Below, one piece after another: positions 36,577-62,893 of a stretch of DNA of 64,000 nucleotides (positions are counted from its first letter, which is position 1; each line of letters opens with the position of its first letter). Location of the stretch: NCBI RefSeq assembly GCF_002214525.1, contig NZ_CP015104.1:620001-684000 (forward strand). The letters run 5' to 3'. This DNA comes from Thermococcus sp. P6. GTDB lineage: Archaea; Methanobacteriota_B; Thermococci; Thermococcales; Thermococcaceae. A model generated the notes under the pieces. The model was given only the letters and a program-made list of their open reading frames with translations, was not told where the DNA came from and did no database searches. The position numbers and the translations under genes are program-made.

Positions 36577-36915
36577 ATGAGGGTGCACCACCTGAGGGTT
36601 CGCGAGGAATACCTGAATCACATAAAGTCGGGCGAGAAGAGGATAGAGGTTAGAATAGCCTACCCGAGGTTCAGGGGCATTAAACCCGGGGACAGAATCG
36701 TCTTCAACGGTTCAATACCGGCGGTGGTCACGGAGGTGAAGCGCTACGAGACCTTCCGGCAGGTTCTGAGGGAAGAACCCATAGAGAAGATATTCCCCGA
36801 CAGGCCGGGTTTTGAGAGGGCCGTTAGGAGGTTCCACGACATGTACTCGCGGTGGAAGGAGAACCGTTACGGCGTCGTGGCCATAAAGTTCAGGCTCCTC
36901 GGTGGGGAGCGATGA
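36577..36915 (+). CDS. ASCH-domain (PUA-like) protein
   Basis: A 112-residue protein of the ASCH superfamily, a small RNA-binding beta-barrel related to PUA. The family pattern is visible in [32 protein letters not shown] and [15 protein letters not shown] 36577 is within a GGGGGCTTGAA context; a TATA-like GGCTTTTAAACG is at about 36544. Its stop overlaps the start of a second ASCH gene (ATGA), so both are translated together. The RNA target or enzymatic activity is unknown. Confidence 0.8.
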
Positions 36916-37481
36916 AGCATCTGGAGTTCGATGGGCGCTACGCGGAGGCCATACTGAGCGGAAGGAAGAGGGCCACGGTAAGGCTCGGAAGGAGGCCAAG
37001 ACTGAAACCCGGGGAGGAAGTTCTGATTCACGCGGGTGGTTACGTCCTCGGAAAGGCCATCGTGGAGCGGGTGGAGGAAAGGCGCGTTGGAGAGCTGACG
37101 GACGAGGATGCTTTTCTCGACGGGTTCTCAAGCAGGGAGGAGCTAATCGAGGCCCTCAGATCCCATTATAAGCACGTCAGCGACGATTCCATGGCCCATG
37201 TCGTGGTGTTTCGCCTCGTTGAACGCTTTGAGAGGCCCGTTACGAGTTCCGAGCATGCCTACGAGGGCAACTCACCGCTGGAGATAGGGGAGAAGGCCCT
37301 CAGGTACCTCGACCTTCCGGAGGAGGACAGGGAACTCATAGAGCTCTTCCTGAAGACCGGGAGCCTGAGGAGGGCAGCCTACAGGCTTGGGGGCCTCAAC
37401 AGGAGGTACCTTATCAGAAACGCCCTGAGGAGGGCCTATAAAGAGCTGAAAAAGAGGGGCCTTATGGGGCCGAAAGTTTGA
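36912..37481 (+). CDS. ASCH-domain protein with C-terminal helical/HTH domain
   Basis: A 189-residue protein. Residues 1-105 are an ASCH domain ([50 protein letters not shown]); residues about 115-185 are helical with [20 protein letters not shown] and [17 protein letters not shown], an HTH-like pattern. The ASCH-HTH combination with a stand-alone ASCH protein in the same operon suggests RNA- or nucleotide-responsive regulation (inference). Its 3' end overlaps the convergent RAM-domain gene by 20 bp. Confidence 0.75.
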
Positions 37482-37722
37482 CGCCTTCAAGCACGCTCGT
37501 TTCCTTTCCGTTCTTGACCCCTGAAACGAGGATCGGAATGAGCTTGAAGGTTCCGCCGTTTATTGTTCTCCTCAACTCCCTTGAGAAATCTTCCATCTCA
37601 AACTCGTCCCTGAATTCGAGCCTTGCTATGAAATCGTACTCTCCGTAAAGCCAGTATCCCTCCACGGGAAGTTTCTCCAGAACCTCGTCGCGGACGCCCC
37701 AGACGAGGAGTATGGCCTCGAT
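37462..37722 (-). CDS. Stand-alone RAM (Lrp ligand-binding) domain protein, apparent ATC start
   Basis: The open frame runs from a TGA at 37729-37731 to 37462. No ATG, GTG or TTG occurs before a GTG at 37665, which would cut the domain in half. A strong Shine-Dalgarno GGGTGATGGG ends 5 bases before ATC (37722-37720), so the protein would be 86 residues: EAILLVWGVRDEVLEKLPVEG then YWLYGEYDFIARLEFRDEF, a complete Lrp/AsnC ligand-sensing domain without DNA-binding part. Such proteins bind amino acids or modulate Lrp regulators. The start needs experimental support; a sequencing error ATG to ATC is the simplest alternative. Confidence 0.65.
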   Translation of the reverse strand: MEAILLVWGVRDEVLEKLPVEGYWLYGEYDFIARLEFRDEFEMEDFSRELRRTINGGTFKLIPILVSGVKNGKETSVLEGVKLSAP

Positions 37723-37877
37723 TTCCCATCACCCGGGACCGCTTTTCGACCCTAAAGAAAAGTTTTTCTAACATTTTTCCGTCAAAAAAGCAACTTTTTA
37801 AAAAATTCTTCTACGAGTTTCGTCGTTCTTCCAGTCAACGTTTTAAACCTCTCCCCCAACTGTTTCCGGTGATAGCG

Positions 37878-59870: not shown

Positions 59871-60798
59871 AGAGAACCTCCATAACGTACCCCCTTCCCG
59901 GGCTCCTGGGGAAGTTGTAGGGCTCTTTTGATGGCCTCTCATTGTAGTAAGGCCTGTTGCACCCCGGACAGCCATAGGTGGCGAAAGTTCCGGGGGGGAT
60001 CAGGGGGGCGAGTTCTTCAACGCCCATCCCGAACCCAACGAGGTCGTCGCCCTCGAACTCGAAGTCATCGGGAGAGAATCCCTCCCTTATGAGATGATGG
60101 GCCACCTGAATCCTCCTGTACCGGAGAACATCAGGTGGTTTTCTATTTTCAAGGCGGGTTCCCTTCACGGGCGTGAAGGCGAAGAGGGAAACCTCAGCGC
60201 CCGTAGAATAGGCCCTCCAGATTGTTTCCACCGCTTCCCTGTCCGTCTCCCCGAGGCCGATTATGAGGTGGACGAAGGCCCTGCCCTCCCCAAAAACCTC
60301 AACGACGTCCCGGGTGAAGCGCCACATGTCCTCCCACGAGTAGAGGGAGTCCTTAATGAGCGGATAGAGACGCTCGCTGGCAACGTCCAGACCCACCCCT
60401 ATGTAGTCAACGTTCCTCGATTTAAACTCCTCGAGGATACGACGTTCCACGGGGGTTATCGAAAGGGACACCGGAATTCCCAGCGGCTGGAAGGCCTCGA
60501 GGAGCTCGAAAACGTCATCCACGAGCCCGGGATAATCCACGGTCTGAAGGCATATCCTCGCGAACCTGCCCGAGGGAAGGGCCTCCACAACTTCATCCAC
60601 CTCAAAGGAGGGCCACGTTACCCTCGAGAGCCTCCTCAGATCGGCCCGGCTTTCCCTCGCCTGCGGACAGAAGGCGCAGTTGTTCCTGCAGCGACCGTTG
60701 TGGTGGGTCATCAGGTACGCCGTGGTGGGTTTGACCATCATCCGGCCCCTTACGAGCCCCATGGCTATCGCCGTTCCGTAAGAAACCCTAACCTTCAT
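59839..60798 (-). CDS. Radical SAM protein, probable lipoyl synthase component
   Basis: A 319-residue radical SAM enzyme. The cluster motif is CRNNCAFCPQARES (CxxxCxxC with C at about 37, 41 and 44), then the TIM-barrel strands (ICLQTVDYPGL, VSLSITPVERR, DYIGVGLDVASERLY); a second cysteine group is in ATYGCPGCNRPYYNE near the C-terminus. The gene order with an MFS and a plant-type asparaginase fits the Thermococcus kodakarensis TK2246-TK2248 region, where TK2248 is one of two radical SAM proteins needed for lipoyl synthesis (from memory). ATG 60798 follows GGAGGCAGGGAGG. Confidence 0.78.
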   Translation of the reverse strand: MKVRVSYGTAIAMGLVRGRMMVKPTTAYLMTHHNGRCRNNCAFCPQARESRADLRRLSRVTWPSFEVDEVVEALPSGRFARICLQTVDYPGLVDDVFELLEAFQPLGIPVSLSITPVERRILEEFKSRNVDYIGVGLDVASERLYPLIKDSLYSWEDMWRFTRDVVEVFGEGRAFVHLIIGLGETDREAVETIWRAYSTGAEVSLFAFTPVKGTRLENRKPPDVLRYRRIQVAHHLIREGFSPDDFEFEGDDLVGFGMGVEELAPLIPPGTFATYGCPGCNRPYYNERPSKEPYNFPRSPGRGYVMEVLSTLLGSRGSH

Positions 60799-61969
60799 CC
60801 TCCCTGCCTCCGATTGCAAGGGGGGCGTGGATGATTATAAGCGATACGATCGCTATGAAGGGTAAGAGTGGAAAGACCCCGGAGTAGCCTCTAAGATCGG
60901 CGACGTAGCCAAGGGATATCTGTCCCCCGAGCATTCCGAGATCGAAGAACATCGTGTAGACGCTCGAACCCATGGTTCTAACCCGGGCAGGGAGGTTGCC
61001 CAGTGCCATCAGCTGCATTGCGGGAACCGCGAGGCCGAACCCGGCACCCACGAGGGCCGCGCTGAGGTAGGAGTAAGGAGGAAGCTCCTCAAAGAGAAGG
61101 GAAACGTAACCGGCTATGACGAGCAACATGCCAATCCTTATCACCGGGATCGGGCCCATCCTGTCGGCACCCCTACCGCCAAAGAGCCTCATAACGAAGC
61201 TCGCCGCACCCACGACCATCATGTAGAAACCGAAGACCCGCTGGGGCATTCCGAGCACCTTGTAGAGCGCCGGCAGATAGGTCACTACTCCCGCGTAGGA
61301 GAAGGAGAAGAAGAAAAGGGACAGGGACGCCGCCACGAAGGTGACCCTCAAAAGACCCGAGTAGTCCCTTTCGGTACCCATGTGGGTTTCCTTCCTGCCA
61401 GCGTTCTTGAATTCCATCCATACGGGAAGAATCAAAAGACCGCCAGCGAGGGAAAAGAGGATGGTGAAGGAGAAGGTTCCGGTAAAGCCAAGGACGTCTG
61501 AAAGGTATCCCCCGAGGGCCGGGCCGATTATGTTGCCCAGCGAGAACATCATGCCACGCCATCCGAGTGTTTCACCGACGCGGCCTTCAGGAGCCAGATC
61601 AACAGCTGTAGCAAGGCTTGAGGGAAAGAACACTCCCATGGAGAAGCCGTGAATAACCCTACCGAACCCGAACAGAGGCAGATTTCCGAGGAATGCAGAG
61701 GCCACGTAAAGGGCACCGGCCAGTATTCCGAGGACGTTGCCCAGAATCATGGCCTGAATCCGGTAGCCCCTGTCCCCCATGAGGCCCCCGATGGGCTTCG
61801 AGAAGAGCGATACCACCGAGGCGGCACCGGCGATCAGGCCGACGAGGAAGGGACCTGCCCCCAGGGTTATCGCAAAGGGAGAGATTATGGGGTTGACTAG
61901 GCTTATCCCGAGGAAGAAGAAGAGGGTTGAGAGGTTCAGGAGCCAGATGTCCCTGAAGGAACTTCCGAT
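60788..61969 (-). CDS. MFS transporter with apparent ATC start
   Basis: The open frame runs from TGA 61975-61973 (the asparaginase stop) to 60788. The first usual start codon is GTG 61816, which would delete the first 51 residues, including helix 1 (IWLLNLSTLFFFLGISLV) and part of helix 2. With ATC at 61969 and GGGGGTTTGA upstream the protein has 393 residues and twelve helices, typical for MFS (motif KPIGGLMGDRG after helix 2). Translation is then coupled to the asparaginase stop. Substrate unknown. Sequencing error at the start codon is the alternative. Confidence 0.72.
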   Translation of the reverse strand: MGSSFRDIWLLNLSTLFFFLGISLVNPIISPFAITLGAGPFLVGLIAGAASVVSLFSKPIGGLMGDRGYRIQAMILGNVLGILAGALYVASAFLGNLPLFGFGRVIHGFSMGVFFPSSLATAVDLAPEGRVGETLGWRGMMFSLGNIIGPALGGYLSDVLGFTGTFSFTILFSLAGGLLILPVWMEFKNAGRKETHMGTERDYSGLLRVTFVAASLSLFFFSFSYAGVVTYLPALYKVLGMPQRVFGFYMMVVGAASFVMRLFGGRGADRMGPIPVIRIGMLLVIAGYVSLLFEELPPYSYLSAALVGAGFGLAVPAMQLMALGNLPARVRTMGSSVYTMFFDLGMLGGQISLGYVADLRGYSGVFPLLPFIAIVSLIIIHAPLAIGGREDEG

Positions 61970-61972
61970 GGC

Positions 61973-62893
61973 TCAAACCCCCGCTACGGGTTCCTTCATG
62001 CCCTCCTTCATGAAGGCGTGGCTCATGTGCTTCGTGTTCTTTGCAAAACCGACGTTACCCCTGTGATCAACCATGATGATGCCCATGGTGTCCCTTCCGA
62101 AATACCGGGTCGCGAGGCTTATGGCAGCTTCACTGGCCGCCTGAGCATCCATCCCGAGTCTTACGAAATCTGTGGCGCTTTTCGCCAGAACGAGCCTCAT
62201 GGCGACCTCTCCAAGACCCGTGCAGGAGGCCCCGGCCACCTCGTTGGCGTAGGTTCCGCCGCCGATCATCGGCGTATCGCCCACCCTGCCGAAGACCTTG
62301 AGGAACACGCCACCGGTGGAGGTTCCCGCGACCACCTCCTCCCCATCGAAGGCCACGGCACCAACGGTGCTCCTGAGGACCTCGGGGTAGCGCTTAACCA
62401 GATCGTTGAGCTTCTTCCAGTGCTTAACCTCTCCCTTTTCGAGCAGCTTTTTCCTGAGCTCCTCCCACTGCCTCCGCCTCTCCTCGGTTACGGGATCGTA
62501 CTCTTCGAAGCCCATGATCCTCGCGAACCTCACCGCCCCTTCACCGCTGAGCAGGACGTGATCGGTTTCCTCCATCACCTTTCTCGCAACGCTTATCGGG
62601 TTTTTGACCCCCTGTATACCTGCAACGGCGCCAGCTTCCAGCGTTCTCCCGCGCATTATGGCCGCGTCCATCTCGACCCTGCCGTCAAGGGTCAGAACGC
62701 TTCCGGTGCCCGCGTTGAAGAGGGGATTGTCCTCCAGAACCTTAACAGCCTCCTCCACGGCATCGAGGGCCGAACCGTTCCCGAGCTCCTTCCAGCCAGC
62801 AAGAACGGCCTCCCTGACGCCCTCGATTACCTTCGGAATGCGCTCATCCTTCTTTATTGTGCCCGCACCACCGTGAACTATTATCGCCCGCAT
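61973..62893 (-). CDS. Plant-type L-asparaginase / isoaspartyl aminopeptidase
   Basis: A 306-residue Ntn hydrolase precursor. The nucleophile is Thr176 in RSTVGAVAFD, with the autocleavage between Ser175 and Thr176 giving two chains; GTSTGGVFLK and RVGDTPMIGGGTYANE form the active-site walls. It resembles the characterised Thermococcus kodakarensis TK2246 enzyme (from memory). ATG 62893 follows GGTGGTTCC. TATA-like GTTTTTAACC is at about 62925-62934. It releases ammonia from asparagine or removes isoaspartyl peptides. Confidence 0.92.
   Translation of the reverse strand: MRAIIVHGGAGTIKKDERIPKVIEGVREAVLAGWKELGNGSALDAVEEAVKVLEDNPLFNAGTGSVLTLDGRVEMDAAIMRGRTLEAGAVAGIQGVKNPISVARKVMEETDHVLLSGEGAVRFARIMGFEEYDPVTEERRRQWEELRKKLLEKGEVKHWKKLNDLVKRYPEVLRSTVGAVAFDGEEVVAGTSTGGVFLKVFGRVGDTPMIGGGTYANEVAGASCTGLGEVAMRLVLAKSATDFVRLGMDAQAASEAAISLATRYFGRDTMGIIMVDHRGNVGFAKNTKHMSHAFMKEGMKEPVAGV

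Follow-up and report, generated by a model that had tools for sequence, protein, structure and literature searches.

Candidate AUC start codons of two genes in a Thermococcus genome

The arrangement and conservation of two start regions in a 64,000-nucleotide stretch of DNA (the window) suggest that AUC probably begins translation in this Thermococcus, at least at low level. That both genes concerned, one for an MFS transporter and the other for a RAM-like protein, are AUC-initiated and rely on a Shine-Dalgarno-like sequence is the somewhat favoured reading of the pair. The ATC at 61969 is a stronger case than the ATC at 37722: AUC initiation appears likely for the MFS gene, and for the RAM gene it is plausible, with the arguments about evenly balanced. 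The preliminary description had proposed that the window may use AUC initiation, or else that both sites carry substitutions. The first proposal is upheld at 61969 by an ATC in 14/14 genomes and the absence of a canonical alternative, and stands as a possibility at 37722, where an insertion broke the GTG/ATG frame of the relatives; the second is not supported, in that the change at the first site is an insertion and the ATC at 61969 is common to the whole clade. The source genome is a single 1.52-Mb contig of the Thermococcaceae, and the named relatives of its RAM gene are from Thermococcus. The other near-complete genomes searched in the family are larger (about 1.7-2.4 Mb) than this one (G000, 1.52 Mb).

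Start region of the MFS transporter gene

The features of this region are:
60788..61972, minus strand: open frame of an MFS transporter (PF07690, 162.9 bits)
61967..61969, minus strand: ATC, conserved candidate start of the MFS gene (ATC in 14/14 clade members)
61973..62893, minus strand: plant-type asparaginase gene (PF01112), upstream of the MFS gene, with its TGA (61975-61973) in the MFS frame
61966..61984, minus strand: 19-nt block GCGGGGGTTTGAGCCATCG, invariant in 14 genomes, containing the Shine-Dalgarno-like GGGGGT, the stop TGA (61975-61973) and the ATC

The second site had been described earlier as an ATC at 61969-61967 in the minus-strand frame 60788-61972, and the sequence agrees. 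The product scores 162.9 bits against PF07690 (cut-off 33.4) over residues 13-347, a match that includes the first helix. Each of the 14 genomes in the window's clade, which are also the 14 best matches, has ATC here, directly after GTT TGA GCC; in 16 other relatives, the homologous position is GTG. No canonical start was observed between the asparaginase stop and the conserved N-terminus of the transporter in any of the 14 clade genomes, and the next canonical in-frame start comes, depending on the species, at codon 24, 43, 46, 52 or 74, which places it within the first transmembrane helices or past them. The block GCGGGGGTTTGAGCCATCG is the longest run observed to be invariant among the 14 genomes within about 900 nt, the second longest being 11 nt, and the codons immediately after the ATC vary mainly at third positions. 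GGGGGT ends 7 nt upstream of the ATC and can pair, with one G-U, with the archaeal anti-Shine-Dalgarno sequence of the 16S tail. Such conservation is hard to account for without initiation at the AUC or directly beside it. Translation would probably begin at the conserved AUC, three nucleotides past the asparaginase stop, by termination-reinitiation guided by the Shine-Dalgarno-like sequence.

The main rival explanation is readthrough of the asparaginase UGA, yielding an asparaginase-transporter fusion with no AUC initiation. The asparaginase TGA lies in phase two codons before the MFS ATC in all 14 genomes, and UGA GCC AUC is invariant among them, as such a fusion would have it; however, the asparaginase and MFS genes of other species overlap out of phase (the stop TAG overlaps the GTG) and therefore make separate proteins there, and a Shine-Dalgarno-like GGGGGT at the proper distance fits initiation instead. 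No case of UGA readthrough in Thermococcales is known to us, and a fusion protein seems quite improbable.

The RAM gene and its orthologues

The features of this region are:
37462..37728, minus strand: open frame of a RAM-like (Lrp/AsnC ligand-domain) stand-alone protein, 86 amino acids if ATC-initiated
37663..37665, minus strand: GTG, first canonical in-frame start of the RAM gene
37720..37722, minus strand: ATC, candidate start of the RAM gene
37727..37732, minus strand: GTG (37732-37730) and ATG (37729-37727), out of frame in the window and in frame in the nearest relatives
37728..37734, minus strand: Shine-Dalgarno-like GGGTGAT, 5 nt upstream of the ATC at 37722
37755..37762, minus strand: TATA-like box CTTTTCTT, for which relatives have CTTTTATC or CTTTTATT, i.e. 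CTTTTAT[C/T]

Checking of the sequence confirmed the frame, its coordinates and the GGGTGAT placed 5 nt before the ATC at 37722 in the preliminary description. The minus-strand frame 37728-37462 is open and is closed on its upstream side by an in-frame TGA (37731-37729), after which it reads TGG GAA ATC (37722-37720) GAG GCC ATA. When the frame was read back to this TGA, no ATG, GTG or TTG was observed upstream of the GTG at 37665. At its 3′ end, the gene overlaps a convergent plus-strand orf (36852-37481) by 20 nt (37462-37481).

The predicted product, earlier called a Lrp-type ligand domain, bears out that name by its predicted fold and falls short of it by profile score, with 17.6 bits against PF01037 (curated cut-off 25); all 18 of the 18 aligned family members match PF01037 weakly, and a profile search with the family finds the stand-alone RAM proteins 2e1a and 2cvi. 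The best PDB matches of an AlphaFold model of the product (mean pLDDT 76.7) are to proteins of the Lrp/AsnC kind and to three stand-alone RAM modules, 2e1a, 2zbc and 2cvi, with probabilities of 0.95-1.00, TM of about 0.5-0.6 and modest E values (about 0.01-0.04), which supports a ferredoxin-like RAM fold for the modelled protein. It resembles FFRP-DM1 (2e1a), STS042 (2zbc) and PHS023 (2cvi) in size and predicted fold, with a weak profile match, and differs from them in sequence identity (22-30%) and in its PF01037 score under the cut-off. In the model, the domain has its strand 1 and helix 1 ahead of the GTG at 37665, and a start there would delete both; therefore, that GTG would give no whole domain, as had been argued previously.

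The search recovered the gene from 77 of 94 genomes of the family, and 64 distinct Thermococcaceae start regions were read. The codon aligned with the ATC at 37722 (position 0) was the subject of an earlier suggestion that orthologues be compared for an ATG; alignment gave a divided answer, with ATG, GTG or TTG in 11/64 start regions and ATC, ACG or CTC in 53/64. Position 0 is preceded by a G-rich leader, commonly GRGGTG, six bases and then ATC. An in-frame GTG or ATG stands 6 to 12 nt upstream in 49/53 of the orthologues with ATC, ACG or CTC versus 4/11 of those with a canonical codon (Fisher p = 1.4e-4, a value not corrected for relatedness). Therefore, most relatives probably start at the upstream GTG/ATG rather than at ATC, and the ATC of most orthologues probably lies inside the coding sequence, after an in-frame GTG/ATG. 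An AUC start at 37722 is thus, on the alignment, not the conserved mechanism of the RAM family. ACG or CTC stands behind an in-frame GTG at L032, L038, L064, L079 and L080 and at L068, L076-L078, L081, L083 and L087, which shows how variable the position-0 codon is. The invariance of ATC in 32/32 sequences was dropped as evidence for a start codon, as the adjacent isoleucine codon is equally invariant.

A universal start of the Thermococcaceae family at the Shine-Dalgarno-spaced position-0 codon (AUC, ACG, CUC, AUG, GUG or UUG), the in-frame GTG being part of the ribosome binding site, was not accepted, given the in-frame GTG/ATG retained in 49/53. Although unlikely, it keeps some standing because the commonest Shine-Dalgarno spacing would itself put GTG in frame: among ordinary genes of the window's genome, the GTG of the GGTG motif lies at -9 from the start in 40%, at -8 in 35% and at -10 in 13%. 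If true, the whole family would exemplify non-canonical initiation in archaea, perhaps under regulation, beside the MFS AUC. The GTG-to-ATC spacing of the RAM gene in the window is -10, which is also found in ordinary GGTG genes and should therefore be usable.

What sets the window apart from its nearest relatives is a one-base insertion: they have GTGATGGAA-ATC and the window has GTGATGGGAA-ATC, and positions 37720-37735 of the minus strand contain GTGATGGGAAATC, the insertion form. Sequence comparison thus attributes the displacement of the GTG/ATG out of frame to this insertion and not to substitution of a start codon. Loss of an ancestral ATG at 37722 by substitution was ruled out, as ATC stands there in the nearest relatives too and the difference from them is the indel. 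The ancestral gene would have held an in-frame GTG/ATG within the conserved G-rich leader; in this genome, a base inserted in the spacer would have pushed GTG/ATG out of frame, leaving AUC, properly spaced from GGGTGAT, as the sole start that gives the whole domain, with output probably reduced. Both the start of ribosomes at AUC and the low output are what we infer from these sequences.

The state in which ATC alone is available occurs in the window and in five further genomes of three other lineages, six genomes altogether. It requires four changes on the protein tree, at least three of them forced by well-supported branches, and three of the four lineages are single genomes. In G028 (L018) and G020 (L033), the GTG is one base further out and so out of frame. 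Three species of another genus (G099, G103 and G108) have the AUC-only state in common, and the relatives in the window's clade retain the in-frame GTG/ATG. All three read ATATGACTTCATTGTGGAGGGATAGAC-ATC, with a stop eight codons upstream, a Shine-Dalgarno-like GGAGGG and no canonical start observed between that stop and the ATC; the 27 nt before the ATC are identical among them, whereas the G103 and G108 proteins share 76-89% identity with the G099 protein. Their dN/dS of 0.36-0.50 indicates that these genes are less constrained than the family as a whole. At L239, L240 and L241 (of G099, G103 and G108, respectively) and at L088, the leader GGAGGGATAGAC-ATC is invariant and a canonical start upstream is absent, the three species having TGA...GGAGGGATAGAC-ATC in common; the RAM frame of L240 contains no ATG, GTG or TTG anywhere.

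Integrity and putative promoter of the RAM gene

A possible but less favoured explanation is that the RAM gene of the window is newly broken, by the insertion together with a degenerate TATA-like box, so that it is silenced or yields a truncated product and its AUC is unused, the MFS gene being a separate matter. The insertion does destroy the in-frame GTG/ATG of the relatives, the box reads CTTTTCTT in place of CTTTTATC, and single genomes in three of four AUC-only lineages are what recent breakage would give. However, the body of the gene is intact and is observed to be under purifying selection (dN/dS of 0.06-0.20 between the window and clade members), the Shine-Dalgarno-like sequence and its spacing to the ATC are retained, and the AUC-only state is conserved in three species of the other genus. 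By this dN/dS, any inactivation in the window would therefore be recent.

With the TATA box placed about 23 bp upstream of the transcription start (PMC4247193), the start predicted from the degenerate box lies about 9 nt upstream of the ATC, and therefore part of the Shine-Dalgarno-like sequence may be outside the transcript. Among T. kodakarensis mRNAs, 14% are leaderless and the 5′ UTR has a median length of 16 nt, and GTG starts have been annotated a few codons upstream of a better ATG (PMC4247193); therefore, a leaderless GTG start and a Shine-Dalgarno-led start at position 0 are both possible in the RAM family.

Another explanation, sequencing or assembly error, would make one G or A of GGGAAA at 37723-37727 spurious, the true sequence being GTGATGGAAATC (37732-37720) with an ordinary start. 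The difference is a single base within a short G/A run, in a genome assembled as one contig. Against this, broken genes are not in excess: raw split hits, which are noisy and include overlapping-frame artefacts, number 36 in 706 genes versus 45 in 692 in the reverse direction (G007), and therefore poor sequence quality of the window's genome is not indicated. An error here is improbable, and it would leave the conserved MFS case untouched.

Frequency and precedents of possible AUC starts

A screen of 699 real orthologue pairs from 864 kb of the window's genome and 1.6 Mb of G007 left the MFS gene, among the matches listed, as the only clear case of a coding N-terminus for which both genomes lack a canonical start; non-canonical starts with a canonical codon nearby escape this screen, and the RAM gene of G007 is outside the part covered. 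Widespread AUC initiation was accordingly not borne out, the MFS gene standing alone in about 700 pairs among the matches listed. Other flagged pairs, as far as inspected, were shadow frames, BLAST over-extension, inteins or RNA genes. Gene finders usually disallow AUC, and genes that start with it are thus lost, truncated or called pseudogenes.

E. coli infC, which starts with AUU under autogenous control by IF3, is likewise a natural gene with a conserved AUN start; its regulation by IF3 sets it apart from the RAM and MFS genes, which show no sign of autoregulation. The archaeal initiation factor set (aIF1, aIF1A and aIF2) differs from that of E. coli. An MFS AUC start in 14 archaeal species would be a clean natural test of how strictly aIF1, aIF1A and aIF2 select the start codon, and of whether Shine-Dalgarno pairing or termination-reinitiation offsets a third-position mismatch.

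Reconstructions of start-codon switches include single prokaryotic switches to AUU or CUG (PMC5622118), alike in that the orthologous start carries a codon other than AUG, GUG or UUG; the text of that study yielded no reference to AUC. The literature searched yielded nothing on AUC starts in Thermococcus and one archaeal precedent, also inferred: ribosomal protein L12ae of Staphylothermus marinus, a gene without a valid start for which alignment puts ATC at the start (PMC2678158). That precedent is a single gene in one genome, whereas here a transporter keeps its ATC in 14 species, within an initiation region that does not vary among them, and a RAM gene family is involved as well.
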